A stretch of 45,552 nucleotides of DNA from positions 1 through 45,552 of the forward strand of contig DVGR01000082.1 of assembly GCA_018712605.1 (NCBI GenBank), written 5' to 3'. Within the stretch, counting starts at the first letter, position 1, and the number at the start of each line of letters is the position of its first letter. Below the pieces are notes generated by a model that had not been told where the DNA came from, did not search any database, and saw only the letters and a list, made by a program, of their open reading frames with translations. Position numbers and translations under genes: made by a program. Shown piece after piece: positions 4,792 to 42,157 of the stretch. The stretch comes from Candidatus Choladousia intestinigallinarum. Its GTDB lineage: Bacteria > Bacillota > Clostridia > Lachnospirales > Lachnospiraceae.

Positions 4792-6186
4792 ATGAAAATG
4801 CGGTGGGATGAACTGCTTTCCCAGGAACATTTTGCTGCGGCTGATGGGGAAGAGATTTCTGGAAGGAACGATTATGAGACTATAATATGCAGCACGTTTT
4901 TTAGGAGGCTGCAGGATAAGGCTCAGGTCTTTCCCCTTGCGGGGGATGACTATGTGAGGACCAGGCTGACACATTCCCTGGAGGTATCGGCCATCGGGAA
5001 AAAATTAGGGGAGTATACCGTAAAGAAAGCCAAGACGCTGGGGAAAGGCAGGGAGGAGATTCCAGAGGAAATTTCAGAGAAATTGCTGTGCGCAGGTCTT
5101 GTGCATGATATTGGAAATCCTCCCTTTGGCCATTTTGGGGAATATGCGATTCGGGAATGGTTTCGGGAACATCTTAAGGAGCTGGCTTTGAAGGAGAGAA
5201 GAGTCACAGAACTTCTGTCAGAGTGGCAGCTTGGGGATCTGTATTTTTTCGAGGGCAATGCTCAGTCTTTAAGGGTATTGTCGAAAACGCCTTATATGGG
5301 GAGGATGGATGGTTTTAATCTTTCTTATGGAGTCCTGGCTTCCATGATCAAATATCCCGTTTCCTCAGAGACATTGAGCCGCAATGTATCTGTTCCTTAC
5401 AAAAAGTTTGGATATTATTACGCAGAAAGACAGCTTTTTGAATCCATAAGCCGGGGGACAGGAATGGCGGGGAGACGCCATCCCCTGTCGTTTCTCCTGG
5501 AAGCGGCGGATGATATCGCTTATAGGACGTCGGATCTGGAGGACGCTCTGGTGAAAAAAGTGATTGCCCTTCAGCAGATCCTAGAGGTGTTTGAACATCA
5601 TCTAAAGGAATTGGAATGCAAGAAGAAAAACAAGGACGGACTGGAACAGGCTGTGCGGAGACTGAAGAAACTGTACCGGGAAGAAGTGGGAAAAAAGAAC
5701 CGAAAGCCGGAACTGACAGCCGTACAGAGATGGAACCAGTACCTTCAGGAGCAGATGATAAAAGACGCCGGGGATTCTTTCCTTGAACATTATGAAGCTC
5801 TGATGCAGGGCGGTTTCTTGGGGGAACTTTTTGATGGGACTCCTTCAGAAAGCATACTTTTGGCTCTTGCGGAAATCAGCGAGGAATATGTTTATACCAG
5901 CTCCGCAAAAACCCGGGCGGAACTGTTTGGCCGGAGGGTGATAGAAGCCCTGCTGGATCAATTCCTTCCGGCGGCTCTTGTGTACGATACAGGGGAGGAT
6001 GCAAGCTATATTCAGCGCAGAACTATGGATACTGTATCGGAGTTCTACAAATCCATGTATCACAGCGAAGCGTCCGGGAAAAGCCCCAGTGAAAAGCTTT
6101 ATCTGAGAATTCTTATGATTACGGATTATATAAGCGGTATGACGGACAGCTATGCCAGGAGGCTCTATCAGGAGCTGAATGTCTGA
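4792..6186 (+). CDS. dgt: dGTP triphosphohydrolase (HD domain, long form)
   Basis: This 464-residue protein is an HD-domain deoxynucleotide triphosphohydrolase of the long, E. coli Dgt-like type, which splits dGTP (or other dNTPs) to deoxynucleoside and tripolyphosphate. Metal ligands are visible as His61 (LTHSLEVS) and His105-Asp106 (HDIGNPPFGHFGE). I chose the ATG at 4792 because AAGGAG lies 10 bases upstream; an in-frame ATG at 4753 has no such site. It is followed after 18 bp by yaaA. A second, shorter HD dGTPase occurs at 33278, so the two may differ in substrate. Confidence 0.9.
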   Translation: MKMRWDELLSQEHFAAADGEEISGRNDYETIICSTFFRRLQDKAQVFPLAGDDYVRTRLTHSLEVSAIGKKLGEYTVKKAKTLGKGREEIPEEISEKLLCAGLVHDIGNPPFGHFGEYAIREWFREHLKELALKERRVTELLSEWQLGDLYFFEGNAQSLRVLSKTPYMGRMDGFNLSYGVLASMIKYPVSSETLSRNVSVPYKKFGYYYAERQLFESISRGTGMAGRRHPLSFLLEAADDIAYRTSDLEDALVKKVIALQQILEVFEHHLKELECKKKNKDGLEQAVRRLKKLYREEVGKKNRKPELTAVQRWNQYLQEQMIKDAGDSFLEHYEALMQGGFLGELFDGTPSESILLALAEISEEYVYTSSAKTRAELFGRRVIEALLDQFLPAALVYDTGEDASYIQRRTMDTVSEFYKSMYHSEASGKSPSEKLYLRILMITDYISGMTDSYARRLYQELNV

Positions 6187-6204
6187 TTCCGGGAAAGGAG
6201 TTTT

Positions 6205-6966
6205 ATGAAAATCATTATTTCGCCTGCCAAGAAGATGCGGGTGGACAGGGAACTGCTTCCGCCTGCGGGGCAGCCGGTTTTTCTGGAAAAAACGGAACTT
6301 TTGAAAAACTGGATAGAGAGTCTGAATCTGGATGAGGCAAAGCGGCTTTGGAAATGCAGCGATAAAATAGCCCGGGAAAATTTTCAGCGTTTCCGTCAGA
6401 TGGATTTAGGCAGGCATCAGACCCCGGCGATTCTGGCGTATGAGGGAATTCAATATCAGTATATGGCTCCAGCCGTGTTTGAGAGCAAGGCTCTGGAGTA
6501 CATACAGGAACATCTGCGGATTCTCTCGGGTTTTTACGGCGTTCTGAAACCCTTCGACGGCGTTGTGCCTTACCGGCTTGAGATGCAGGCAAAGCCGGAA
6601 AAGGGCACAGGCTTTCCGGCTGGGGAAGGAAAGGATTTATATGATTTCTGGGGGACGGCTCTTTATGAAGAAATCGCGGGCAGGAATTGTGTGACGGTAA
6701 ATCTTGCCTCCAAGGAGTATTCCAGATGTATTGAGAAATTTCTGCGGCCGGATGAGACATTCCTTACCTGTGTTTTTGGAGAAAAAGATGAGGGAAAGGT
6801 GAAGCAGAAAGGAACTCTGGCCAAGATGGCCCGGGGAGAGATGGTTCGCTTTATGGCGGAAAACCAGGTGGAGAATTTGGAAGAACTGAAAAACTTTGAC
6901 CGGCTGGGCTATAAATATAGTGAGGAGGACTCCGCCGCCGGGGAGTTTGTGTTTATCTGCGGATAG
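6205..6966 (+). CDS. yaaA: peroxide stress protein YaaA (DUF328)
   Basis: The 253-residue product matches the YaaA/UPF0246 family from its opening MKIIISPAKKM through the FYGVLKPFDG-VPYRLEM core and the C-terminal NFDRLGYKY segment. In E. coli YaaA limits intracellular iron and oxidative DNA damage during peroxide stress and binds DNA; that role is carried over from the family. It is soluble. It is tightly spaced after dgt (18 bp, AAAGGAG site) and before a flavodoxin-like gene, suggesting a small operon of nucleotide-pool and redox-stress functions. Confidence 0.92.
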   Translation: MKIIISPAKKMRVDRELLPPAGQPVFLEKTELLKNWIESLNLDEAKRLWKCSDKIARENFQRFRQMDLGRHQTPAILAYEGIQYQYMAPAVFESKALEYIQEHLRILSGFYGVLKPFDGVVPYRLEMQAKPEKGTGFPAGEGKDLYDFWGTALYEEIAGRNCVTVNLASKEYSRCIEKFLRPDETFLTCVFGEKDEGKVKQKGTLAKMARGEMVRFMAENQVENLEELKNFDRLGYKYSEEDSAAGEFVFICG

Positions 6967-10225: not shown

Positions 10226-10273
10226 AACCTCCAAACCAAGGCAAGGAAATTTGCCGGTTTGGAGGCACTTTTA
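10226..10273. terminator. bidirectional terminator between convergent genes
   Basis: Perfect 10-bp arms 10228-10237 and 10256-10265 enclose a second short stem. On the minus strand the hairpin is followed by six T residues, so it chiefly terminates the DUF134-NifX-methyltransferase operon. A weaker T tract serves the plus strand. Confidence 0.75.
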
Positions 10274-10275
10274 TA

Positions 10276-11031
10276 TTACTTCCTTACAGCCCGGATCCGG
10301 ATTCTGACATAGTCGATGAACCATCTGCCTTCCCGGAAAAGAACCGGGCGCAGTTTTTCTGACGCTTCAGTCAGAATTTCTTTTACGGTACTCTCAGACA
10401 TTCCTTCAAAGGGTTTTTTGTCAAACATGCGAATCCATTCCTCCAGCCCGTTTTCATTTTTCTGGGGAGTGGGGCGGTCAAAGAGAATCGCATAGGTGAC
10501 TTTGAAGCCGCAGGATTCCATAAGAGAGGTATATTCTCCGATACTGGGGAAATAGAAAGCACGCAGATAGGAGAAGTCCCTGGCGGAAAAAAGCTCTTCA
10601 AGAGTGGAGTGCACCAATTCCGCACATCCTTTTCCGCCAAACTCACATACTAACTGGCCTCCCGGCTTAAGCTGGCAGAAGAGATTCCGCAGCATTTCTT
10701 CCTGGCGGTCTGCGTCTATCCAATGGAAAACAGCGTTGGAAAAGATCACGTCCGCTTTTTCTTCCAACTGGAAATTCAGGGCGTTTCCCTGAAGAAAACT
10801 TAGCTCCGAATACTGCCGCTTGGCCAGCGCAAGCATCTCGGAAGAATCGTCGATCCCCAGCACACGAAATCCTCTCTCGGAAAGTTTGTGCGTCAGAGCT
10901 CCGTTCCCGCATCCTAAGTCCACTACAAACTGGCTTGTATCCCCCGTGATCAGATCCAGCACGTCCTCTCCGTATTGATGGACAAAAGAAAAGTTATCTT
11001 TATAATTTTCGGCCTGCCAGGTGATGTTCAT
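10276..11031 (-). CDS. class I SAM-dependent methyltransferase
   Basis: This 251-residue protein is a Rossmann-fold methyltransferase resembling trans-aconitate 2-methyltransferases. Motif I is VVDLGCGNG (about residues 36-44), the acidic end of beta2 is GIDDSSEML, and the post-II/III region reads DVIFSNAVFHWI followed by LKPGGQLVCEFGG. The acceptor is unknown. It is the last gene of a minus-strand run behind DUF134 and NifX-like genes, 35 bp from the latter with a CAGGAGG site. Whether its substrate relates to the metal theme of those genes is open. Confidence 0.88.
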   Translation of the reverse strand: MNITWQAENYKDNFSFVHQYGEDVLDLITGDTSQFVVDLGCGNGALTHKLSERGFRVLGIDDSSEMLALAKRQYSELSFLQGNALNFQLEEKADVIFSNAVFHWIDADRQEEMLRNLFCQLKPGGQLVCEFGGKGCAELVHSTLEELFSARDFSYLRAFYFPSIGEYTSLMESCGFKVTYAILFDRPTPQKNENGLEEWIRMFDKKPFEGMSESTVKEILTEASEKLRPVLFREGRWFIDYVRIRIRAVRK

Positions 11032-11066
11032 ACTCTAAACCTCCTGATAAAAAAGATTTGTAAAGA

Positions 11067-11498
11067 TCAGTGACCGCCGCAGGAGCCGTGATGGCCGCAG
11101 GAGCCGTCTTCATGCTCGCCGTGGTGTCCGCAGGAACCGCTGTGATGCTCACCATGATGTTCTCCGTGGTGGCTGCATGTCACGTCAGGATTATAAGACA
11201 GAGAGCCGGACAGAAGAGACTGGACAGCCTCATCCGCATTGCCCTGGACGCCGCCGTAGAGGGAAATGCCGACCTCTGCAAGGGCTGTTTTGGCGCCTCC
11301 GCCGATACCGCCGCAGATGAGGGTATCCACAGAAAGGCTTTTTAAAAATCCGGCCAGGGCGCCATGGCCCTTTCCCTTTGTATCTGTGATTTCCTGAGCA
11401 AGGATCTTCCCGTCCTCTATGGTGTAGATTTTAAACTGTTCCGTATGGCCAAAGTGCTGGAACACCTGGCCGTTTTCATATGTTACCGCTACTTTCAT
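11067..11498 (-). CDS. NifX/NifB-like (dinitrogenase Fe-Mo cofactor domain) protein with His-rich tail
   Basis: The 143-residue protein has the small RNase H-like domain of the NifX/NifY/VnfX cofactor-binding family (residues 1-105: VAVTYENG, FGHTEQF, LICGGIGGGAK, GVQGNADEAV). It then has a 36-residue tail with 12 His and 4 Cys in HHGE/SCGHH units, which should bind transition metals. No nif genes are near, so a metal-storage or carrier role is likelier than nitrogenase assembly. I chose the second ATG (11498) because GGAGG stands seven bases upstream. The start sits two bases after the DUF134 stop, implying translational coupling. Confidence 0.88.
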   Translation of the reverse strand: MKVAVTYENGQVFQHFGHTEQFKIYTIEDGKILAQEITDTKGKGHGALAGFLKSLSVDTLICGGIGGGAKTALAEVGISLYGGVQGNADEAVQSLLSGSLSYNPDVTCSHHGEHHGEHHSGSCGHHGEHEDGSCGHHGSCGGH

Positions 11499-11500
11499 TT

Positions 11501-11869
11501 TCATTCCTCCTTGTCTCGATTCTGGCATTTTGCCCTGTGACGGCGGCAGCCGCCGCAGCCGCAGAATTCTTCAGCCCCGTCGCAGAGCCGGTAATCCCCG
11601 CCCTCTATTTTCAGGGGAAGTCCCTCGACCAGAGCTTGGGCCAGCTTTTTCCGTGCGCTTGTGTAGATCTGCTGAACGGTGGTTCTTGCGATTTTCATAT
11701 AGATCCCGCATTCTTCCTGAGAAAAATTTTCTTTGTCTATGAGCCGGATAGCTTCATACTCGTCTACAGTCAGGATTACGGGAGGGCCGGGGGCAGAGCA
11801 CCCCGCCGGAAGAAATTCAAGAACGCCGGGCAGACGGCAGACATGCCTGCATTTTCTGGGACGTGGCAT
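11501..11869 (-). CDS. DUF134/UPF0251 helix-turn-helix regulator
   Basis: This 122-residue protein belongs to the DUF134 (UPF0251) family. It has the typical MPRPRKCR-C-LP start, a sigma-70 region-4-like helix-turn-helix in the middle (VDEYEAIRLID, then SQEECGIYMKIARTTVQQIY), and a Cys/His-rich C-terminus (CDGAEEFCGCGGC). The Cys clusters at both ends suggest metal or redox sensing. Such genes often sit beside NifX-domain genes, as here. An inverted repeat around its promoter suggests it controls this operon. That regulatory link is inference. Confidence 0.87.
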   Translation of the reverse strand: MPRPRKCRHVCRLPGVLEFLPAGCSAPGPPVILTVDEYEAIRLIDKENFSQEECGIYMKIARTTVQQIYTSARKKLAQALVEGLPLKIEGGDYRLCDGAEEFCGCGGCRRHRAKCQNRDKEE

Positions 11870-11890
11870 AAAATCGCTCCCTTCTGTTTA

Positions 11891-11940
11891 TGACATATGC
11901 CAATTAATAGGAGCATACACTAGTTTTTGGCATATGTCAA
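11891..11940 (-). promoter_or_regulatory. promoter and inverted-repeat operator of the DUF134 operon
   Basis: On the minus strand a consensus TTGACA (11935-11940) and TATGCT (11912-11917) are 17 bp apart. A perfect 12-bp inverted repeat flanks them: TGACATATGCCA at 11891-11902 and TGGCATATGTCA at 11928-11939. One arm overlaps the -35 and the other lies just past the start site, the expected layout for repression by looping or paired dimers. Confidence 0.7.
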
Positions 11941-11946
11941 TAATAA

Positions 11947-11962
11947 GATGTTGAGGTCAAAA
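11947..11962 (+). repeat. 16-bp repeat, left copy flanking the purine permease
   Basis: GATGTTGAGGTCAAAA here recurs in inverted orientation at 13710-13725, about 1.75 kb away on the other side of the permease gene. Locally it can also form a 7-bp hairpin with the following CCCTCAA. Confidence 0.7.
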
Positions 11963-11972
11963 GCCCTCAACC

Positions 11973-12023
11973 ATGATGCCTACGGATTGTTCCGTGCTGC
12001 GCACTCCCACAATCCTGCATCAT
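11973..12023. repeat. imperfect hairpin upstream of the purine permease
   Basis: Arms ATGATGC (11973-11979) with GCATCAT (12017-12023) and GGATTGT (11984-11990) with ACAATCC (12009-12015) form a two-part stem around an 18-base loop. It lies between the divergent promoters. There is no T tract, so it is not an obvious terminator. Confidence 0.5.
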
Positions 12024-12064
12024 AATAAAGTATCAGACAAAAATAAGAATTGCCAAATATGGTA

Positions 12065-12092
12065 TTGAAAATTTCAGAAAATTCTTTATAAT
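12065..12092 (+). promoter_or_regulatory. promoter of the purine permease gene
   Basis: TTGAAA (12065-12070) and TATAAT (12087-12092) are separated by 16 bp in AT-rich DNA, about 78 bp ahead of the leader end. Confidence 0.65.
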
Positions 12093-12105
12093 AAGACACG
12101 GTGCA

Positions 12106-12136
12106 GATGCCGGAAATGATTTCTGGTTCCGGCATC
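12106..12136 (+). promoter_or_regulatory. leader hairpin of the purine permease mRNA
   Basis: A perfect 10-bp stem (12106-12115 with 12127-12136, 11-base loop) lies at the start of the predicted mRNA. No T tract follows and the purine-riboswitch core is not recognised. Confidence 0.5.
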
Positions 12137-12176
12137 CTTGGATGACATGTTGTCTGAATCAGGAAGGAGAAAAATT

Positions 12177-13532
12177 ATGGAGAAATTTTTTAAACTGAAA
12201 GAAAACGGCACCAAGTTTTCTACAGAAGTCGTGGCCGGACTGACCACCTTTTTCACCATGGCGTACATAATCGCGGTAAATCCCAGTGTACTCAGCCAGT
12301 CGGGAATGGAATGGGGAGCTGTTTTCCTGGCGACGATTATTGCGTCTATCATCGGAACTCTGGTTATGGGGCTCTTTGCCAACGTACCCTACGCCCAGGC
12401 TCCCGGTATGGGATTGAATGCGTTCTTCGTATACACGGTATGCTTCGGTCTGGGCTTTACCTGGCAGCAGGCTCTGTCCATGGTATTTATCTGTGGAGTC
12501 TTCAATATCATTATCACGGTGACCAAGGTTCGGAAATTTATTATCAAGGCCATTCCCAACAGCCTGCAGAATGCCATCGGCGGCGGTATCGGCGTGTTTG
12601 TGGCCTACATCGGTCTGCTCAATGTGGGGATTATCAGCTTTGATTCGGGAGTTCCGGCCATTGCCGCTTTGAACCAGCCGGCTTTCTGGCTGTTCCTTAT
12701 TGGGCTTGTGCTGACCATTGTGCTTCTTGTATGCAATGTGAAGGGTGCGATTTTGATCGGTATCGTGATTACGGCCCTTCTGGGGATTCCCATGGGAGTG
12801 ACGACTGCCAGTGATTCCGTAAGCTTTTCGGAAGCGTGCCAGGCACTTCCCTCAACCTTTGGCGTGATTTTCACCTCTCAGGGCCTGCCTTCCCTGTTCA
12901 GCGATATGGCAAAGCTTCCCCTTGTATTGGTGACGATTTTCGCTTTCAGTATTTCTGATACCTTTGATACCCTGGGAACCTTCATCGGAACGGGACGGCG
13001 AAGCGGCATCTTCAGCGAGGAAGACGAGAAAGCGATGGAGTCTAGTTCAGGCTTTAAGTCTAAAATGGATAAGGCTCTGTTTGCCGATGCCATTGCAACC
13101 TCCATTGGTTCCATATTCGGTACCTCCAACACTACTACTTTTGTGGAGAGCGCTTCAGGGATCGGAGCAGGAGGACGTACGGGACTGACCAGCGTGGTTG
13201 TAGCCATCTGCTTTGCAGTCAGCGCATTTTTAGCCACCTTTGTAAGTGCGATTCCCTCAGCGGCTACGGCACCTGCCCTGGTAGTAGTGGGGATTATGAT
13301 GACCTCTGCCTTTAAGGAGATTCAGTGGGAAGATTTTTCAGAGGCAGTTCCGGCTTTCTTCGCCGGCCTGTTTATGGCTCTTTGCTACAGCATATCCTAT
13401 GGAATCGCCTTTGGCTTTATTTCTTACTGTATCGTGAAGATCTGCAGAAAAGAAGCTAAGAGCATCCATCCCATTCTTTGGGTTGCTACGATTCTCTTTA
13501 TTCTGAACTTCATTCTTCTGGCAGTGATTTAA
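12177..13532 (+). CDS. pbuG: NCS2/AzgA-type guanine-hypoxanthine permease
   Basis: This 451-residue multi-helix membrane protein belongs to the AzgA-like branch of NCS2 purine transporters (B. subtilis PbuG/PbuO), which import guanine or hypoxanthine with protons. Visible family signatures are VAGLTTFFTMAYIIAVNP at the N-terminus, FSISDTFDTLGTFIGTGRR in the middle, and GTSNTTTFVESASGIGAGGR. About 12 hydrophobic segments follow one another. I chose ATG 12177, which has AAGGAG nine bases upstream; an upstream in-frame ATG lies inside the leader. Exact purine preference is not readable. Confidence 0.92.
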   Translation: MEKFFKLKENGTKFSTEVVAGLTTFFTMAYIIAVNPSVLSQSGMEWGAVFLATIIASIIGTLVMGLFANVPYAQAPGMGLNAFFVYTVCFGLGFTWQQALSMVFICGVFNIIITVTKVRKFIIKAIPNSLQNAIGGGIGVFVAYIGLLNVGIISFDSGVPAIAALNQPAFWLFLIGLVLTIVLLVCNVKGAILIGIVITALLGIPMGVTTASDSVSFSEACQALPSTFGVIFTSQGLPSLFSDMAKLPLVLVTIFAFSISDTFDTLGTFIGTGRRSGIFSEEDEKAMESSSGFKSKMDKALFADAIATSIGSIFGTSNTTTFVESASGIGAGGRTGLTSVVVAICFAVSAFLATFVSAIPSAATAPALVVVGIMMTSAFKEIQWEDFSEAVPAFFAGLFMALCYSISYGIAFGFISYCIVKICRKEAKSIHPILWVATILFILNFILLAVI

Positions 13533-13533
13533 G

Positions 13534-13614
13534 AGTAACAGCCATCAGCTATGACATGGGATGATTTATACTTGCATAAAAATCAGACCGTGTCATACTT
13601 GATGAGCTGTTACT
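13534..13614 (+). terminator. long hairpin after the purine permease, possible terminator
   Basis: Just past the stop codon three perfect stem blocks stack in order: 13534-13542 with 13606-13614 (9 bp), 13544-13547 with 13600-13603, and 13551-13556 with 13591-13596. A short TTTT follows. It is unusually large for an intrinsic terminator and could be a palindromic repeat. Confidence 0.5.
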
Positions 13615-13679
13615 TTTAAGATATGCCTCTCCAGAATTAATATTGATTTTTGGAGGTTTTTGTGATATATAAATATTTA

Positions 13680-13725
13680 GATGCCAAGGTCAAAAGGCCT
13701 AAGCAGGGATTTTGACCTCAACATC
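13680..13725. repeat. hairpin repeat, right copy flanking the purine permease
   Basis: TTTTGACCTCAACATC at 13710-13725 is the exact reverse complement of 11947-11962. It forms a local hairpin: AGGTCAAAA (13687-13695) pairs with TTTTGACCT (13710-13718), with outer GATG/CATC. Confidence 0.7.
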
Positions 13726-13767
13726 ATATTTATAAAACAGACTTACCATAATAATTGGATAAGGAAA

Positions 13768-13932
13768 ACAGTAGGTGTCGGATGGTATCGATCCGGTGAA
13801 AAGGGAAACAGGTGAGAATCCTGTACGATCTCGTCACTGTAATTAGTGAGCTTTTGCCAATATGCCACTGGGAGACCGGGAAGGCGGCTAAGGCGTGGAA
13901 CTATGAGTCAGGAGACCTGCCTATTGCTGTAC
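13768..13932 (+). ncRNA. cobalamin (adenosylcobalamin-type) riboswitch aptamer
   Basis: The order of conserved blocks matches the B12 riboswitch: GGTGAAAAGGGAA near 13795, GGTGAGAATCC near 13811, TCACTGTAATTAGTGAG near 13833, GCCACTGGGAGACCGGGAAGG near 13864 to 13883, and the B12 box GAGTCAGGAGACCTGCC at 13905-13921. Flanking bases can close P1. It lies upstream of the SBP gene at 14039 and should shut the operon off when cobalamin is plentiful. Confidence 0.92.
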
Positions 13933-13961
13933 GGGAGCTGGGCTCCAGACCACGAGGACTT

Positions 13962-14020
13962 GGTTGTACGATTGACATCTTTTTTGTGTACAATCCTTCG
14001 TTTTCGGCGGAGGATTTTTT
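13962..14020 (+). terminator. riboswitch expression platform (antiterminator and terminator)
   Basis: The terminator is an 8-bp stem with one wobble (13993-14000 with 14008-14015) followed by TTTTTT. An alternative helix, 13962-13969 with 13988-13996, uses the bases AATCC of the terminator arm, so the two structures exclude each other. This supports transcription attenuation. Confidence 0.75.
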
Positions 14021-14038
14021 GTTTTTGAAGGAGGAAAA

Positions 14039-15661
14039 ATGAAACGAAAGAAAATGCTGGCAGTTTGCCTGACAGCCGCCATGGCTTTGGGAGCCGCCCA
14101 GGTAAGTACGGTGTCCGCTGATGACGGGCCCCATCTTAACTTCGGATGCTATGTTTATTCAACGTCTTTTGATCCGGCAGCGTATCAGAATGCCGCCTGG
14201 CAGGGGATGAGATGGGGAATCACGGAGGCCTTGTTCAAATTTAATGACGATGCTACCATCGAACCCTGGCTTGCGGACTCTTATGAAGTTTCAGAGGATC
14301 ACATGACATGGACTTTTCACATCCGTGACGGCGTGCAGTTTTCAAACGGAAATCCCTGCGACGCCCAGGCTGTGGCAGACTCCCTGAACCGTCTGTTTAA
14401 TGTGTGCGAGAGTACCGAATACAGTTCCACGCCGAGACAGTATATAGACATGGCTAGTATTGAGGCTGATAATGAGGCAAATACAGTGACTATCGTGACG
14501 AATGTCCCTTATGCGGATTTGAGGGGACCTCTTTGTTTTCCTTTCTACACGGTCATCGATGTGGAAGGAGATACGACGGACGAAGCGCATCCAGGCGGCT
14601 ACAATACAACCGTGATTGGTACCGGACCCTATGTCCTGTCCTCCTTTGACGAACTCAGCAAGAGCGGTGAGATTGTCAAAAATGAAAATTACTGGGATGG
14701 AGAGGTTCCGTACGACAGTATTTCCGTTATCTTTATTGAAGACGATACCACAAAGGCAATGGCGCTCCAGAGCGGCGATATTGATCTGACAGAGAATGTG
14801 ACGACCATCAGCGATCTGCAGAACCTGGAGGCAGACAGTTCCTTCTATGTTTCCAGAAAAAATGGTGTGCGCAGCGGTTTTGCCCTTGTGAATTTTAACG
14901 GTATTCTGGCAAACGATGCCCTTCGCCAGGCGGTGTTTATGGCTGTCGATGGACAGACCCTGTGCGATGTGACTACAGGAGGCATGTACACCTACGGACC
15001 AGCCGTTCTTCCGTCCACACTGAGCTATCCGGATGAGGAACTGGAGAATCCCTATGCTTATGATGCGGAAGCGGCTGCGGCTCTTCTGGATGAGAACGGA
15101 ATCGTAGATACGGACGGAGATGGAATCCGTGAATTAGACGGACAGAATATTAATCTCCAGTTTGATACATATAAGAACCGCTGCCTCAGCGACTTTGCGG
15201 AGGCGATTCAGTCCCAGCTTGCAGTTGTGGGAATTGGCTGTACGGTGAATGTTCTGGACAGCGATACCCTGTGGATGCAGATGCAGGAGGGAGATTATGA
15301 TCTTACAAACTCCAACTGGATCACAGTGGGAACCGGTGACCCCACAGCATACCTTCTGAATTGGTACGGAGACGGGGGAGAAAACTTCTTCTCAAGCGAT
15401 AATACGGACGCTGCAAACTACTGCGGCTATGACAGTGAAGAATTCAACGAGCTGTACGATCAGTTCACCGCTTCCCTGGATCAGGAAGAGAGAGATGAAC
15501 TGGTTGTTCAGATGGAGCAGGTGCTGATCAATGACTGCGCGGTGCTGGTACACGGTTATTACAATTCAACCATGATCAGCAATGCTTCTAAGGTGACAGG
15601 GGCTGAGATCCCGGCATTCGACTATTATTGGCTGAACACGGATATTAAGCCGGCAGAATAA
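14039..15661 (+). CDS. ABC transporter substrate-binding protein, family 5 (NikA/OppA-like)
   Basis: This 540-residue exported protein is a cluster-C binding protein of the nickel/peptide/opine family. The block around residues 60-110 (IEPWLADSYEVSED, then TWTFHIRDGVQFSNGNPCDA) is very like NikA. The N-terminus is a signal peptide (basic n-region, hydrophobic core to about residue 20) with a likely cleavage after VSA at residue 27 and no convincing lipobox, which is odd for a Gram-positive binding protein. It heads a six-gene operon under a cobalamin riboswitch, so cobalt, a metal chelate or a corrinoid-related ligand is likelier than ordinary peptides. The ligand is inferred, not seen. Confidence 0.9.
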   Translation: MKRKKMLAVCLTAAMALGAAQVSTVSADDGPHLNFGCYVYSTSFDPAAYQNAAWQGMRWGITEALFKFNDDATIEPWLADSYEVSEDHMTWTFHIRDGVQFSNGNPCDAQAVADSLNRLFNVCESTEYSSTPRQYIDMASIEADNEANTVTIVTNVPYADLRGPLCFPFYTVIDVEGDTTDEAHPGGYNTTVIGTGPYVLSSFDELSKSGEIVKNENYWDGEVPYDSISVIFIEDDTTKAMALQSGDIDLTENVTTISDLQNLEADSSFYVSRKNGVRSGFALVNFNGILANDALRQAVFMAVDGQTLCDVTTGGMYTYGPAVLPSTLSYPDEELENPYAYDAEAAAALLDENGIVDTDGDGIRELDGQNINLQFDTYKNRCLSDFAEAIQSQLAVVGIGCTVNVLDSDTLWMQMQEGDYDLTNSNWITVGTGDPTAYLLNWYGDGGENFFSSDNTDAANYCGYDSEEFNELYDQFTASLDQEERDELVVQMEQVLINDCAVLVHGYYNSTMISNASKVTGAEIPAFDYYWLNTDIKPAE

Positions 15662-15689
15662 TCAGCAAAAGCGCATTTGAGGAAGAGTA

Positions 15690-16628
15690 ATGAATATAAA
15701 AAAACTTGGAAAACGATTTCTTCAAATTTTAATCGTATTGATTGGAATTAGTTTTCTTTCATTTTTACTTATTTTTATCTCTCCGGGAGACCCGGTTACT
15801 TCCATGTATTCCAGTACGGGTATGATGCCCTCTGAAGAAGTGATCAACGAGACGAGAGAGGAACTTGGACTGAACAGAATTTTTATAGAACAATACGGTA
15901 CATGGCTGTGGAACTGCCTGCACGGAAATTTCGGGAATTCCTTTTCCATGCACAAGCCAGTGACGGAACTGCTGCTGTCCCGCCTTCTGCCGACGCTTCA
16001 GCTTTCCCTGTTATCCCTGGCAATTATGCTGGTTATATCCGTTCCGTTGGGGATGCTGTCCGCAGTCTGCAAATCCAGGCCTATAGACTATATTGTGCGG
16101 GGATTTAGTTTCCTTGGGGTTTCCATGCCGAACTTTTGGGTGGGACTGCTGCTCCTGTACGTTATTGCCCTGAAGCTGCGGCTGGTACCTGTGGTAGCCG
16201 CTGGAGGCGGTATTCAGAAGCTGATTCTTCCGGCGCTGACGCTGGCATTTTCCATGACAGCAAAATATACAAGACAGGTGCGGACTGCCGTTCTGGAAGA
16301 ATTGAACCAGGATTATGTGACGGGTGCCAGAGCCAGGGGGATAAGTGAGAGGACGATCTTGTGGAGACATGTATTTCCCAATGCACTTTTGCCTCTTGTG
16401 ACCATGCTTGGCTTGTCACTGGGATCTCTGCTGGGCGGCACAGCAGTGGTTGAAGTGATTTTCTCTTATCAGGGGTTGGGAAATTTAGCGGTCACCGCTA
16501 TCACTGCCATGGATTATCCGCTGGTACAGGGATTTGTTCTTTGGATTGCGCTGATTTATATGGTAGTCAATCTGATTGTGGATATTTCTTATGAGTTTCT
16601 TGACCCACGGATCAGAGAGAAGAGGTAG
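15690..16628 (+). CDS. ABC transporter permease (NikB/DppB-like)
   Basis: This 312-residue inner-membrane permease of the DppB/NikB family has an N-terminal helix (residues 11-30), a long extracytoplasmic loop, and five further helices. The cytoplasmic EAA loop reads YVTGARARGISERTILWRHV and contacts an ATPase. It should form the transmembrane channel with the next gene's product. It follows the binding-protein gene by 28 bp with a GAGGAAGAG site, and its stop is four bases before the next start. Confidence 0.92.
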   Translation: MNIKKLGKRFLQILIVLIGISFLSFLLIFISPGDPVTSMYSSTGMMPSEEVINETREELGLNRIFIEQYGTWLWNCLHGNFGNSFSMHKPVTELLLSRLLPTLQLSLLSLAIMLVISVPLGMLSAVCKSRPIDYIVRGFSFLGVSMPNFWVGLLLLYVIALKLRLVPVVAAGGGIQKLILPALTLAFSMTAKYTRQVRTAVLEELNQDYVTGARARGISERTILWRHVFPNALLPLVTMLGLSLGSLLGGTAVVEVIFSYQGLGNLAVTAITAMDYPLVQGFVLWIALIYMVVNLIVDISYEFLDPRIREKR

Positions 16629-16631
16629 CCC

Positions 16632-17462
16632 ATGCAGAAAAAGCAAAATATTTTTATGAAAAATAAAATGTTTACGATATATCTGATCCTTGCGGTTGGG
16701 ATTATACTCATAGCTGTATTTGCGCCGCAGATCGCTACGCACGATCCAAGTGAAGCTTTGCTGACCAATGCATTAAAGTCTCCCAGCCGAGAGCATCTGT
16801 TTGGGACGGACAAACTGGGGCGGGACATGTTTTCAAGAGTGATTTACGGAACGAGAGCCTCCCTTCCAGCCGCCTTCGCCCTGGTAGGCATCATCTTTGC
16901 GGTGGGAAGCCTGCTCGGTATTATCGCTGGTTATTTTGGAGGATGGATTGATTCAGTTCTTATGCGCCTTGCAGATATGATGGTAGCCTTTCCTGGTATG
17001 GTGCTGGCAATCGCCGTGGCAGGTATTCTGGGAGCCAGCATTTCCAATGCGGTCATTGCCATCGCTCTTGTGAGCTGGACAAAATATGCACGTATGGCAC
17101 GAAGCCTGGTGTTAAAGATGAAAGGCGATGATTATGTGGAGGCGGCCCGGGTAACAGGATCGACAAATCCCCATATTTTGTTCCGCTATATGCTTCCCAG
17201 TGTGATACCTACGCTGATCGTGACGGCTTCAACGGATATCGGCGGTATGATGCTGGAGTTGGCAGGCCTCTCCTTTCTGGGGTTCGGAGCCAGACCGCCG
17301 ATACCAGAGTGGGGGCTGATGCTGAGCGAGGGGCGTTCCTATATGCAGAATGCTCCCTGGGTTATGATTTTTCCGGGACTTGCGATTTTGATTGTGGTTG
17401 CGGTCTTTAACCTGCTTGGCGACAGTTTGAGAGATGTGCTGGATCCTAGATGCGATGACTGA
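16632..17462 (+). CDS. ABC transporter permease (NikC/DppC-like)
   Basis: This 276-residue protein is the DppC/NikC-type partner permease. After an N-terminal helix it has the family segment HLFGTDKLGRDMFSRVIYGTR, then five helices with the EAA loop YVEAARVTGSTNPHILFRYM. It acts with the preceding permease in the membrane. It starts four bases after the previous stop and is followed by the first ATPase gene 11 bp on, consistent with one polycistronic mRNA. Confidence 0.92.
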   Translation: MQKKQNIFMKNKMFTIYLILAVGIILIAVFAPQIATHDPSEALLTNALKSPSREHLFGTDKLGRDMFSRVIYGTRASLPAAFALVGIIFAVGSLLGIIAGYFGGWIDSVLMRLADMMVAFPGMVLAIAVAGILGASISNAVIAIALVSWTKYARMARSLVLKMKGDDYVEAARVTGSTNPHILFRYMLPSVIPTLIVTASTDIGGMMLELAGLSFLGFGARPPIPEWGLMLSEGRSYMQNAPWVMIFPGLAILIVVAVFNLLGDSLRDVLDPRCDD

Positions 17463-17473
17463 GGAGGATACGC

Positions 17474-18268
17474 ATGGACCTATTAAATATGAAAAATATT
17501 ACGGTGAGTTACGGGAAGAATGCACTCCCTTCCGTGGAAAATTTCAACCTGGATATGAAAGAGGGGCAAATCGTCAGCATCGTAGGAGAGAGCGGAAGCG
17601 GCAAGACAACGGTTATACGGTCGGTTTTGGGACTGCTGCCTGGAAACGGCAGAGTGGAACAAGGAGACATTTTGTTTCGGGGAAATTCGCTGCTGAACCT
17701 GAATAAAGAACAATGGAAGGAACTGCGGGGTTCAGAAATTTCAATGATTTTTCAGGATTCAGGGGCAATGATCAATCCAATCCGCAGAATCGGGGACCAG
17801 TTCGTGGAATATATCCGCACCCATCAGAAGATGCCCAAAAAGGAGGCGTGGGCGAAGGCTGCCGATATGCTTACTAGGATGAATCTTCCGCACAGCGATA
17901 ATATTATGAAAAGCTATCCTTTTCAGCTTTCCGGAGGAATGCGCCAGCGTGTGGGCATTGCCATGGCCATGACTTTCCAGCCGAAACTTCTGCTTGCCGA
18001 TGAGCCCACCAGCGCCCTGGATGTGACGACACAGGCGCAGATTGTCCGCCAGTTTATGGAGCTGCGGGAACAGTACGGTACATCTATGATTATTGTGACC
18101 CACAATATCGGAGTGGCTGCCTATATGGCTGATCAACTGCTTGTCATGAAGAATGGAAAAATCGTGGATGCCGGAACACGTGACAGCGTAATAAAGCATC
18201 CGGCCAGTGATTACACTAAGAATCTGCTGGCGGCGGTTCCAGAGCTGGAGGGTAAGAGATATGTCTGA
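17474..18268 (+). CDS. ABC transporter ATP-binding protein (NikD/DppD-like)
   Basis: This 264-residue ATPase powers the importer from the cytoplasmic side. Walker A is GESGSGKTT (about residues 38-46), the signature is LSGGMRQR, Walker B is LLLADEPTSALD, and the switch His lies in VTHNIG. It is of the short DppD/NikD type, without the Cys-rich C-terminal extension of its partner. A GAGGAG site precedes the ATG. The stop overlaps the next gene's start by eight bases. Confidence 0.93.
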   Translation: MDLLNMKNITVSYGKNALPSVENFNLDMKEGQIVSIVGESGSGKTTVIRSVLGLLPGNGRVEQGDILFRGNSLLNLNKEQWKELRGSEISMIFQDSGAMINPIRRIGDQFVEYIRTHQKMPKKEAWAKAADMLTRMNLPHSDNIMKSYPFQLSGGMRQRVGIAMAMTFQPKLLLADEPTSALDVTTQAQIVRQFMELREQYGTSMIIVTHNIGVAAYMADQLLVMKNGKIVDAGTRDSVIKHPASDYTKNLLAAVPELEGKRYV

Positions 18269-19220
18269 TAAAATCATACTCAAAGCGGAACATATTACGA
18301 AAAAGTTCCCGGCATCCGAGGGCCGCACACTGATTGCCTGCAATGATATCAACCTGGCAGTTTATCAGGGGAAGACCTTGGGAATCGTGGGGGAGAGCGG
18401 CTGCGGGAAGTCAACATTTGTAAAAATGATCGTAAACGCACTTAAGCCTACAGAAGGGAAAATGATTTATGAGGGGCAGGACATCACAAAACTGAAGGGA
18501 GAAAAGCTGCGCAGGATGCGCCCGGAGATTCAGATGGTATTCCAGGATCCGGGAACAGCCTTTCATCCTAAGATGAAAGTGATGGATATCGTCACAGAAC
18601 CTCTGATGAACTTTGGGCTTATTAAGCGTTCTCAAAAGGAAGACAAAGCCAGAGAGCTGCTAAGGCTTGTTGAACTCCCGGAGGATTACATTTACCGTTT
18701 TCCCCACAGCATGAGCGGAGGGCAGCGGCAGAGAGTGGGAATTGCCAGAGCTTTAGCTCTGGAACCGAAGATTATTGTCTGTGATGAGGCCACCAGCGCC
18801 CTGGATGTGTCTGTACAGGACCGCATCATTGAACTGCTTGTAAGACTGCAGAGGGAAAAAGGAATCTCCTATGTCTTTATCTGTCATGACGTAGCTTTAG
18901 TGCAATCCCTGGCCCATCAGGTGGCAGTTATGTATCTTGGCAATGTTGTAGAGGTTCTGCCTGGGAGTGAAGTTGGGACAAATGCCCGGCATCCGTATAC
19001 CCAGGCGCTTCTGGGAGCGATCTTTTCCACAAAAATGGATTTTACAAAGAAAAACGAGAGTATCGAGAGTGAAGCACCCAGTTCGCTGAATACGCCCCCG
19101 GGATGCCCGTTTCAAAACCGGTGCAGCCAATGCAGAGAGATCTGTAAAAAGGAACGGCCGATACTTAAGAAAATTTCAGAAGGGCATGAGGCGGCTTGTC
19201 ACATGCTGCAGGGAGTTTGA
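18261..19220 (+). CDS. ABC transporter ATP-binding protein (NikE/DppF-like)
   Basis: This 319-residue second ATPase has Walker A GESGCGKST, signature MSGGQRQR and Walker B IIVCDEATSALD. The C-terminal oligopeptide-transporter extension contains PPGCPFQNRCSQCREIC, a Cys cluster that in relatives can hold an iron-sulfur centre. I chose ATG 18261, which overlaps the previous stop (ATGTCTGA); the reading frame is open further upstream but without a good start. It forms a heterodimer with the preceding ATPase. Confidence 0.93.
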   Translation: MSDKIILKAEHITKKFPASEGRTLIACNDINLAVYQGKTLGIVGESGCGKSTFVKMIVNALKPTEGKMIYEGQDITKLKGEKLRRMRPEIQMVFQDPGTAFHPKMKVMDIVTEPLMNFGLIKRSQKEDKARELLRLVELPEDYIYRFPHSMSGGQRQRVGIARALALEPKIIVCDEATSALDVSVQDRIIELLVRLQREKGISYVFICHDVALVQSLAHQVAVMYLGNVVEVLPGSEVGTNARHPYTQALLGAIFSTKMDFTKKNESIESEAPSSLNTPPGCPFQNRCSQCREICKKERPILKKISEGHEAACHMLQGV

Positions 19221-19252
19221 ACGCTGTAAACAAGAATGTGAGGACAGGAATT

Positions 19253-20212
19253 ATGTGGAATATCTGTGGACAGGCAATGAACAGGGGAGAGAAAAAACGG
19301 ATTCTTCTTGAACCTGCAGTGAAAGGCTACCAAATACCGGCGACCTTAATCTGCGGGCAGAAACCGGGAAAAACGCTGCTGGTGACAGCGGGAATCCATG
19401 CCGGGGAATACCCGGGAGTGGCTGCCGTGATCCGTATGGCTTCAGAAATTGATCCACAGAAGATTGAAGGAAATATTATACTGATGCACTGCGTAAACAC
19501 CAGCGGCTTCTGGGCTCGTACGGTGGAAATTATACCGGAGGACGGATACAATCTGAATCGGGATTATCCGGGAAGGGCGGACGGCACCATCGGGGAAAAA
19601 ATCGCATGGTATTTTATGGAAGAGCTGTTTCCCAAAGTGGATTTTATTTTTGATTTTCACAGCGGCTCTAATACGGAAATCATGACGCCTCTTGTCTTTT
19701 ACCCGGATGCCCCGAAGGTTATGGAGGCCTCTTTGGAGGCGGCAAAATCGCTGGATGTGCCCTACCTGGTTGAGTCAACGGCTGAAAAAGGACAATACAG
19801 CTATGCAGCCCGCAATTACGATGTGCCTGGGCTTTTAGCCGAGATCGGGCATTCCCATAGCTGCGAGCCGGAATGGGTAGATCTCTATTACAGAAATATC
19901 AAACTTTTGCTCCAGCATTTGAAGATGGGGCAGTTTGGCGAAAAGAAAAAAACAGAGCGTCAGCGGATATACAGAAAGACGATTTATCTGGATGCAAGAG
20001 AACAGGGGCTGTGGTATCCGGCGGTGAAAGCGGATGAGAAAATACAGAAGGGGCAGCTCATCGGACATACAGAGGATTTCTTCGGAAACGAGAGAGAAAG
20101 TTACCGTGCGGAGGCGGACGGCAGGATATTTTATTTTACGGATGCGCTGGCTGCGCCGAAAGGAAGTTTTCTGGCAGCGTATGGCCTGGAAGAGTCCGCA
20201 GAGAATATATAG
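19253..20212 (+). CDS. M14/AstE-AspA family zinc deacylase
   Basis: This 319-residue protein belongs to the succinylglutamate desuccinylase/aspartoacylase branch of M14 metallopeptidases, which cleave N-acyl amino-acid bonds with one zinc. Ligands are His49 and Glu52 (HAGE) and His136 (FDFHSG), with the substrate-binding NLNRDYPG near residue 100 and a catalytic Glu likely in LLAEIGHSH. A beta-rich C-terminal domain follows. There is no signal peptide, so it acts in the cytoplasm, plausibly on what the transporter imports. ATG 19253 or 19277 may be the start. It closes the riboswitch operon and a strong terminator follows at once. Confidence 0.87.
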   Translation: MWNICGQAMNRGEKKRILLEPAVKGYQIPATLICGQKPGKTLLVTAGIHAGEYPGVAAVIRMASEIDPQKIEGNIILMHCVNTSGFWARTVEIIPEDGYNLNRDYPGRADGTIGEKIAWYFMEELFPKVDFIFDFHSGSNTEIMTPLVFYPDAPKVMEASLEAAKSLDVPYLVESTAEKGQYSYAARNYDVPGLLAEIGHSHSCEPEWVDLYYRNIKLLLQHLKMGQFGEKKKTERQRIYRKTIYLDAREQGLWYPAVKADEKIQKGQLIGHTEDFFGNERESYRAEADGRIFYFTDALAAPKGSFLAAYGLEESAENI

Positions 20213-20245
20213 AATCAGGGGCTTTGAAAAAGCCCCTGATTTTTT
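20213..20245. terminator. bidirectional Rho-independent terminator
   Basis: A perfect 13-bp stem (20213-20225 with 20229-20241) with loop GAA is followed by TTTTTT on the plus strand. It lies between the convergent M14 gene and argG and has a short T run on the minus strand too. Confidence 0.92.
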
Positions 20246-20252
20246 GAAAAAA

Positions 20253-21482
20253 TTAGTTTTCTTTATTTTTGGAAAGCTCCGCCATCTTCATGGCACGAAC
20301 CTTTAAGGGAAGGCCAAAGAGAGTGATGAAGCCGTCGGCATCGTGATGGTCATACAGGTCTCCCGTGGTGAAGCTTGCCAGAGATTCGCTGTACAGGCTG
20401 TAGGGAGAGGTGGTTCCCGCTTTGATGATGTTTCCTTTATAAAGTTTAAACTTTACTTCTCCGGTTACATATTCCTGTGTCACGTCCACAAATGCCTGAA
20501 TGGCTTCACGCAGAGGTGTGAACCATTTTCCTTCATAGACCACCTGGGCGAATTTGTTGCCCAGATCTTTCTTTGTCTCCAGAGTGGCACGGTCAAGTAC
20601 CAGCTCCTCCAACTGCTGGTGAGCCTCCATGAGAATGGTTCCGCCCGGCGTCTCATAAACGCCTCTAGATTTCATTCCTACGACCCGGTTCTCCACGATA
20701 TCCACGATACCGATGCCGTGCTTGCCGCCCAGGCGGTTCAGTTCTTTGATAATATCAGAAACCTTCATTTCTTTTCCATTGATGGACTTCGGAACGCCTG
20801 CCTCAAAGGTCATGGTCACGTATTCGCCCTCATCAGGAGCTTTCTCAGGGGTAACGCCCAGCACCAGAAGGTGATCGTAATTCGGCTCGTTGGCGGGATC
20901 CTCCAGCTCAAGTCCCTCATGGCTGATATGCCACAGATTACGGTCACGGCTGTAGCTGCTGTCTGTGGAGAAAGGAAGATCAATGCCGTGCTGCTTGCAG
21001 TATTCGATCTCGTCCTCGCGGGACTGCATGGTCCATACATCCGTCATACGCCAGGGAGCGATCACTTTCAGATCCGGGGCCAGAGCCTTGATGCTCAGCT
21101 CAAAACGGATCTGGTCGTTTCCCTTTCCAGTAGCGCCGTGGCAGATGGCGGAAGCGCCCTCCTTGCGGGCGATCTCCACCAGCTTTTTGGCGATGGCGGG
21201 GCGGGCCATAGAGGTTCCCAGAAGGTATTTGTTCTCATATACAGCGCCGGCTTTTACGCAGGGCATAATGTAATTTTCAGAGAAATCGTCAATGATATTT
21301 TCAATATATAATTTGGAGGCGCCGGAAAGCTTCGCTCTCTCATCCAGACCATCCAGCTCGTTACCCTGGCCGCAGTCAACGCAGCAGCAGATTACTTCAT
21401 AGCCAAAATGCTCTTTCAGCCAAGGAATGATGGCTGTGGTGTCCAGTCCTCCTGAATAAGCCAGAACAACTTTTTCTTTCAT
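20253..21482 (-). CDS. argG: argininosuccinate synthase
   Basis: This 409-residue cytoplasmic enzyme joins citrulline and aspartate with ATP to give argininosuccinate in arginine synthesis. The PP-loop ATP motif AYSGGLDTT is at residues 8-16. Other family blocks are KGNDQIRFE and the [15 protein letters not shown] segment. I chose the ATG at 21482, with GGGAGG 11 bases upstream. It is transcribed divergently from argCJBD; argF and argH are not in the window. Control by arginine repressor is likely given a palindrome on its -35. Confidence 0.97.
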
Positions 21483-21550
21483 AGATTTAATTCCTCCCAA
21501 AGTCTGTATTTTATCCTCTCATTCGCAAATGCAGGGGATTTCCTTCCGAT

Positions 21551-41751: not shown

Positions 41752-42096
41752 GGCAAGTAGGATAAGTGGTCGCGGCTGGCCAGACGAAAGGGGCCAGGTG
41801 AGGAAAGTCCGGGCTTCGCAGGGCAGGATGCCGGATAACGTCCGGTGGAGGCGACTCTAAGGAAAGTGCAACAGAAATGAACCGCCAGCTACGGCTGGTA
41901 AGGGTGGAAGGGCAGTGTAAGAGACTACCGCCTTCCCGGCAACGGGGAGGGCACATGTAAACCCCATCCGAAGCAAGACCGCAAGGAAGCATATGGCGGC
42001 CCGTCAGCTTCAGGTAGGTCGCTGGAATCTGCCGGCAACGGCAGATCTGGATAGATGACCATTCATGACATAACCCGGCTTATCGTCCTGCTTGCC
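41752..42096 (+). ncRNA. rnpB: RNase P RNA
   Basis: This is the catalytic RNA of ribonuclease P, which matures tRNA 5' ends. Diagnostic conserved blocks are GAGGAAAGTCCGGGC near 41800, GTGCAACAGAAATGAACCGCC near 41868, GTAAACCCCATCCGAAGCAAGACC near 41957, and GATAGATGACCATTC then ACATAACCCGGCTTAT at the 3' end. The ends pair as helix P1 (GGCAAG...AGGATAAG with CTTATC...CTTGCC). At about 345 nt it is full length and looks closest to bacterial type A, though I have not folded it. Confidence 0.95.
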
Positions 42097-42157
42097 ATTT
42101 CAGATTTTGTTACAGCCTTTTAAGAAAGTCTTAAGAAAAGTAGCGTGAAAGCCTTAT

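Follow-up and report, generated by a model that had tools for sequence, protein, structure and literature searches.

NikABCDE members of Clostridium tetani and Desulfitobacterium hafniense that stand behind a B12 riboswitch have been set apart as cobalt-type (Zhang 2009, PMC2667541, citing Rodionov 2006), and the passages of that paper dealing with them mention no deacylase, P1B ATPase or MATE exporter. Here we analyzed a stretch of 45,552 nucleotides from Candidatus Choladousia intestinigallinarum (assembly GCA_018712605.1, contig DVGR01000082.1), hereafter the window, in which a cobalamin riboswitch heads an operon for an ATP-binding cassette (ABC) importer and a putative zinc deacylase. Likened by description only, the published importers and this one are alike Nik/Opp-type ABC systems behind a B12 riboswitch, apart from the nickel-specific ones. 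Hence, although the initial annotation of this DNA had not recognized such a system as characterized, B12-riboswitch Nik-type importers were already in print. We read the operon as a cobalamin-repressed uptake system that would supply cobalt for de novo B12 synthesis, with cobalt as the most likely cargo, and put the probability of this reading at about 0.55; the metal is probably imported as an organic chelate. Cobalt is favored because the genomes carrying the system make corrin and because a P1B metal ATPase adjoins the importer in many relatives.

The riboswitch leader and its operon

Upstream of the first gene, the plus strand carries a cobalamin riboswitch aptamer at positions 13756-13938, which spans the full RF00174 model (1-189 of 189) and passes the gathering score at 112.9 bits (cut-off 31.5, E 1.2e-27). 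It begins 12 bases before position 13768, from which the initial annotation had read a B12 aptamer with a terminator/antiterminator pair, and both elements were recovered by the Rfam match and by RNA folding. A terminator-like hairpin followed by a T run (13992-14016, plus strand; 11 pairs, 4 of them G-C) sits between the aptamer and the start codon and was found in the folds as well as by a pattern scan, which returned 11 sites against 5.7 ± 3.1 in shuffled sequences, so that the pattern is weak by itself and its position is what matters. Nascent-leader and forced folds further yielded a putative antiterminator on the same strand, with arms at 13962-13969 and 13988-13996 (8 pairs and one bulge), that occupies the 5' arm of the terminator, and the two helices would thus compete. 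Indeed, leader RNA ending at 14004 adopted the antiterminator fold (−20.5 kcal/mol), whereas RNA extended to 14016 folded into the terminator at −26.5 kcal/mol, compared with −23.5 kcal/mol when the antiterminator was forced. The stability of the whole-leader fold equalled that of shuffled sequences (z −0.18; −1.23 for 13925-14020), and we therefore base our claim for the leader on helix geometry together with the match to Rfam. An aptamer and competing helices ahead of the first gene are typical of B12 riboswitches that act by terminating transcription, as predicted here. We infer that transcription would stop when cobamide is high and that, when it is low, the leader would be read through and the operon expressed.

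The six plus-strand genes behind this leader are tightly packed, with gaps of 28, 3 and 11 bases, an overlap of 8 and a last gap of 32 bases. The first encodes a solute-binding protein (SBP) of the SBP_bac_5 family (14039-15661; 540 aa; PF00496, 249.8 bits), followed by two BPD_transp_1 permeases that exceed NCBIfam nickel models, namely permease B (15690-16628; 312 aa; Opp2B, 386.2 bits, cut-off 350) and permease C (16632-17462; 276 aa; Opp2C, 337.6 bits, cut-off 300). ATPase D (17474-18268; 264 aa; PF00005) scored below cut-off on the OppD and NikD models, and ATPase F (18261-19220; PF00005), for which the first ATG is at 18261 and family searches started at 18255, ends in an oligo_HPY domain (PF08352). 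The operon is completed by an AstE/AspA-type (M14-like) deacylase (19253-20212; 319 aa; PF24827, AstE_AspA_cat, 98.4 bits, cut-off 25). A terminal hairpin at about 20213-20241, read on the plus strand from the sequence and listed by the pattern scan on the minus strand only, separates the operon from a convergent open reading frame (20253-21500). Families and coordinates thus agree with the compact unit of binding protein, two permeases, two ATPases, deacylase and closing hairpin originally proposed. Elsewhere in the window, an RNase P class A RNA gene lies at 41754-42098.

Riboswitch linkage in relatives

Relatives were sampled twice, by the SBP and by the deacylase, and the riboswitch was not used in choosing them. 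SBP matches at E ≤ 1e-80 occurred in 13 of the 392 genomes of the order, the window's own included, and 13 loci were fetched from the 12 other genomes. A cobalamin-class riboswitch lay upstream on the same strand in all nine complete SBP-anchored ABC operons with upstream DNA (8 genomes; L140-L144, L146 and L150-L152), the weak one of L146 being an adenosylcobalamin (AdoCbl) riboswitch (RF01482, 63.3 bits, cut-off 50). As for the other SBP-anchored loci, L145 is truncated by its contig, and L147-L149 have the SBP alone and no riboswitch. Within the window's genome, a search found five cobalamin riboswitches, counting that of the operon, and the eight further SBP_bac_5 genes detected there all lie on contigs without one.

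The deacylase sampling comprised the best 80 of at least 501 relatives, in which riboswitches were scored with a model of our own (R1, E ≤ 1e-3) and loci were called close when permease B was at least 53% identical. R1 detected a riboswitch in 28 of the 80 loci: 23 of the 31 close loci and 5 of the remaining 49 (Fisher p 5e-9). This value, like the other p-values given here, overstates the case, because neighboring species are interdependent and genomes already sampled recur in some of the loci. The riboswitch stands before the genes in 22 of the 31 close loci and downstream in L119. Overall, the deacylase loci contained 35 aptamers in 1.32 Mb, where the density in the window's own genome would predict 2.2. 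The Rfam cut-off was passed by weak matches in L046, L047, L071, L083 and L085 and by those in L090 and L092, as well as by matches in L050, L069, L088, L099, L117 and L119. R1 matches above E 1e-3, that is, a second one in L050 and one in L051, were left uncounted; the former passes Rfam (61.3 bits), so R1 undercounts, and L051 has no Rfam riboswitch match. Homologous operons therefore usually carry the riboswitch in both samplings, which bears out in relatives the linkage that the initial annotation had drawn from a single locus. Two further riboswitch arrangements were recorded on the way: a NiCo riboswitch at 17772-17865 of L071, a Phascolarctobacterium locus, about 7 kb from the deacylase, and three cobalamin riboswitches on the downstream side of the deacylase in L119 of Clostridium ragsdalei, all within about 7 kb (10226-17001). 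The system is thus carried by laboratory acetogens, namely C. ragsdalei, C. drakei (L124) and Eubacterium callanderi (L108).

Cargo and gene company

We selected 43 carrier genomes (22 as genomes and 21 through their loci), which are not all holders of the system, and found CbiD in 42 of them, as compared with 177 of the 392 genomes of the order. CbiD was missing from G126 only, which, like G106 and G167, has an SBP but no other part of the system; leaving these three out gives 40 of 40. Similarly, in the order sample CbiD was present in 12 of 13 SBP-positive genomes versus 165 of 379 others (p 4.5e-4). CbiM was over its cut-off in 16 of the 43 selected carriers and not in the other 27, even though 42 encode CbiD, in a search that covered CbiM as the one cobalt carrier; the window's genome is among the 27, and its draft assembly (86.8% complete) gave no match to CbiM (PF01891).

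Two more of this genome's cobalamin riboswitches bear on the cargo. One precedes its cob genes, and another is followed at 1.3-2.3 kb by a Peripla_BP_2/FecCD/ABC set of BtuFCD type, so that corrinoid uptake seems already covered. CbiZ opens cobinamide, and it is conceivable that the cargo is a corrinoid, or a corrinoid precursor joined through an amide that the deacylase would open in the cytoplasm in the same fashion. We consider this doubtful. Cobalamin riboswitches are indeed described as often heading corrinoid uptake genes (PMC3766115), family-5 SBPs can accommodate large ligands, as indicated by heme-binding protein A in the PDB list obtained for the SBP, and the deacylase fold is an amide-cleaving one. 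However, corrinoid import would leave the P1B metal ATPase that accompanies the importer to be explained, would duplicate the BtuFCD-type set, and would be expected as a salvage system also in genomes that do not make B12, at odds with the near-universal CbiD of the selected carriers. Elsewhere in the same genome, a strong cobalamin riboswitch (94.4 bits; L027 4426-4627, G000:C154) lies upstream of the sporulation gene spoIVA (5008-6477), and another, in L026 from 5472 (G000:C219), is followed by a run of genes for Fe-S and cysteine-rich (CCG) proteins that resemble heterodisulfide reductase.

The cobalt reading has to be set against several observations that count against it, in addition to the dependence among sampled species mentioned above. 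In eight of the 31 close loci (L053, L056, L068, L072, L073, L078, L082 and L098), neither R1 nor the Rfam gathering score revealed a cobalamin riboswitch; the upstream DNA of L053 falls beyond its contig, and six of the eight are recorded as Phascolarctobacterium, Succiniclasticum or Acidaminococcaceae. Nor was a riboswitch found in L070, just below the 53% identity line, or in nine looser or partial loci (L061, L095, L101, L104, L105, L109, L114, L115 and L116). The lack of CbiM among CbiD-positive genomes did not differ significantly between those with the system (8 of 12) and the others (76 of 165; p 0.23), with CbiM called at E ≤ 1e-20 (123 genomes, as against 133 at E ≤ 0.001 and 130 over the cut-off); mutual exclusion of the system and CbiM was rejected on this result, which does not bear out a simple replacement of CbiMNQO either. 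The P1B ATPase of the relatives scores highest on Zn/Cd/Pb-type models, not as a cobalt exporter. A deacylase was near in only 2 of the 13 SBP-anchored loci (L142 and L151), the search being confined to these loci within their genomes. The deacylase is thus a frequent partner of the importer and not a fixed part of it: the dedicated enzyme of the initial annotation holds to the extent that it recurs with the transporter in the deacylase-anchored loci, but it is not obligatory. Finally, of the NikA metal-chelate residues R97, R137, Y402 and H416 (PMC2667541), three are replaced in the SBP (R97 by S, R137 by L and Y402 by G, in an alignment read by eye and numbered by hand), which makes a NikA-like metal site only putative.

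H416 falls beyond the aligned part of the SBP, and NikA W398 is retained. The complex bound by the SBP need not equal the Ni-histidine of NikA, given the three missing residues. The SBP passed neither of the NikA models (Opp5A_nikA, 229.8 bits, cut-off 600; TIGR02294, 179.8 bits, cut-off 393), so that the label 'NikA-like' given at first survives loosely, through W398, and fails on the scores and on the three residues. An ordinary NikABCDE-type nickel, or mixed nickel and cobalt, importer brought under B12 control appears improbable to us: both permeases are over the nickel cut-offs, the nearest solved structures to the SBP are nickel-binding proteins and W398 is kept, yet the SBP falls far short of NikA in score and chelating residues, and B12 control is hard to account for with nickel alone. 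By eye, the SBP N-terminus is signal-peptide-like and without a clear lipobox. The same inspection covered all nine SBP_bac_5 genes found in the genome (L157-L165, including the window copy at 14039-15661), none of which has a clear lipobox; L163 and L165 show the lipobox-like ALAC and MAGC within the hydrophobic stretch, and the nearest SBP homologs, L046 and L047, carry LSGC. Loss of the lipoprotein machinery was rejected as an explanation, since 39 of 40 genomes from the genus encode Lgt. An AlphaFold model of the SBP was discarded for its mean pLDDT of 51.9.

The start of the deacylase was set at 19253 (MWNICG...), where relatives align; the first mechanical start is at 19196, and the PF24827 family search began at 19286. 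No signal peptide was apparent. H49, E52, N102, H136 and E197 are invariant across 13 aligned deacylases, a set that excludes L036 (internal stop), L035 and L045 and in which L043 was never aligned, and an Arg following NLN is present in the window enzyme and lost in L031-L034. We take H49, E52 and H136 to be the zinc ligands of the AstE/AspA catalytic domain, a putative motif whose 'zinc' label derives from conservation. The AlphaFold model of the deacylase (pLDDT 85.5) best matched DoeB (6twm_F; TM 0.81, E 2.6e-26, 25% identity), followed by other AstE/AspA structures and a cyanophycin dipeptide hydrolase, and the enzyme is not DoeB by the NCBIfam equivalog (99.6 bits, cut-off 402.7). Judging from its gene company, the simplest reading is that it would act on an acyl- or amide-type ligand imported together with the metal. 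The fold would also suit the import of a peptide or acyl-amino acid by which the cell could do without a B12-dependent enzyme, for example N-acyl-methionine upon failure of B12-dependent methionine synthase, with the deacylase freeing the amino acid, since AstE/AspA enzymes cleave N-acyl amino acids and DoeB is the nearest structure; cobalamin riboswitches are moreover described as also controlling isozymes of B12-dependent enzymes (PMC3766115). We nevertheless deem this very improbable, because it leaves the P1B ATPase and the CbiD enrichment unexplained. A second deacylase of the genome, 35% identical, was noted in L030 (1139-3232, G000:C28), where it shares one long frame with methyltransferase-like stretches on either side (labelled by eye).

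Metal ATPases, exporters and a secreted protein recur around the importer in relatives. In L038-L042, from the window's genus, the riboswitch heads genes in the order B-C-SBP-D-F, and the opposite strand carries a P1B heavy-metal ATPase and then the deacylase. P1B ATPase, importer, secreted protein and deacylase stand together in L034 and L033, with a riboswitch in the former and none at cut-off in the latter, whereas in L117 the riboswitch precedes the P1B ATPase, itself followed on the same strand by importer and deacylase. Of the 31 close loci, 19 contained the P1B ATPase, a heavy-metal P-type enzyme by NCBIfam, versus 5 of the 49 others; this ATPase has a long His-rich start in L038, L033, L107 and L117 and not in others, such as L108. 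The genome of the window has a P1B match (74%) on contig C144, likewise without the His-rich start. A Clostridiales-1 RNA was seen beside that gene on the opposite strand (L166 2638-2805, G000:C144). The secreted protein occurred in 11 of 31 close loci versus 2 of 49 others. It fits no Pfam family, its PDB profile search gave two chance-level matches only, and two of six members weakly resemble periplasmic-binding proteins, at scores under the Pfam cut-offs; the provisional name DUF3798 was dropped when Pfam returned no such family. No ortholog matched in the window's genome, a draft in which an empty result says little. A MATE exporter (assigned to PF01554 for the eight candidates checked) was present in 10 of 31 close loci versus 5 of 49 others (p 0.02) and also in four SBP-anchored loci (L140, L142, L144 and L146).

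The ligands of Nik/Opp-family binding proteins are metal chelates or peptides. Under the cobalt reading, the family-5 binding protein would likely capture cobalt in a small organic chelate, and the two permeases and two ATPases would bring the complex in. Once in the cytoplasm, the ligand might be hydrolysed by the deacylase at an acyl or amide bond, or trimmed after use, so that cobalt becomes available to the chelatase. Among relatives, metals taken in by mistake, for instance Zn or Cd, could be expelled by a P1B ATPase of the same operon or divergon, and the MATE exporter could send the ligand or its product back out of the cell; the roles of deacylase, P1B ATPase and MATE are suggested by gene company. 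Taken to its full extent, this would amount to a cobaltophore cycle under one B12 riboswitch, in which MATE exports an amide-type chelator, the importer returns its cobalt complex, the deacylase frees the cobalt and the P1B ATPase clears wrong metals. We regard the complete cycle as unlikely. In the window's own genome it would be dispersed or partial, with the P1B ATPase encoded on a separate contig, a MATE gene lacking from the operon and no chelator-making gene identified.

Comparison with known systems

NikABCDE shares its gene set and permease families with the window operon, but the permeases fall short of the strict models (nikB, 314.6 bits, cut-off 447; nikC, 315 bits, cut-off 358.45), and the operon further differs in its sub-cut-off SBP lacking the three chelating residues and in the B12 riboswitch at its head. 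The staphylopine (Cnt) importer is also an Opp-type metal importer, and some relatives of the window have, like it, a small-molecule exporter gene in the locus. All Cnt models nevertheless scored below cut-off (CntA, 112.4 vs 800; CntC, 249.3 vs 440; CntF, 245.4 vs 385; CntD, 244.7 vs 380), and the exporter of the relatives is a MATE protein, whereas that of Cnt belongs to another family. The ECF cobalt transporter CbiMNQO presumably has the same role, cobalt supply for B12, with proteins unrelated to those described here. BtuFCD differs in having a Peripla_BP_2 protein with FecCD permease instead of an SBP_bac_5 protein, and the deacylase shares fold and catalytic motif with the N-acetyl-diaminobutyrate deacetylase DoeB/EutE without reaching its equivalog cut-off. 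CbtJKL is listed in a 2021 review among ABC cobalt importers (PMC7689651); ABC-type cobalt import would be common to both systems, but CbtJ is BtuF-like and the window SBP belongs to family 5.

Among the open-access papers listed by the literature searches, the company of deacylase, P1B ATPase and MATE exporter around B12-riboswitch importers was not found. One article on gut peptide/nickel operons contains neither 'riboswitch' nor 'cobalt' (PMC3534369), and another names other cobalt transporters of Dehalobacter (PMC4285132). A recurrent B12-controlled importer, often with a deacylase, metal ATPase or efflux pump, is a direct candidate for cobalt supply in these bacteria. Should a cobalt ligand prove to be the substrate of the deacylase, chelators may be a means by which gut and anaerobic bacteria vie for cobalt, in the way that others vie for iron. 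Relative to the systems described before, the core idea of a B12-switched Nik-type cobalt importer is already known, and its wider spread and its company of deacylase, P1B ATPase and MATE exporter look new.

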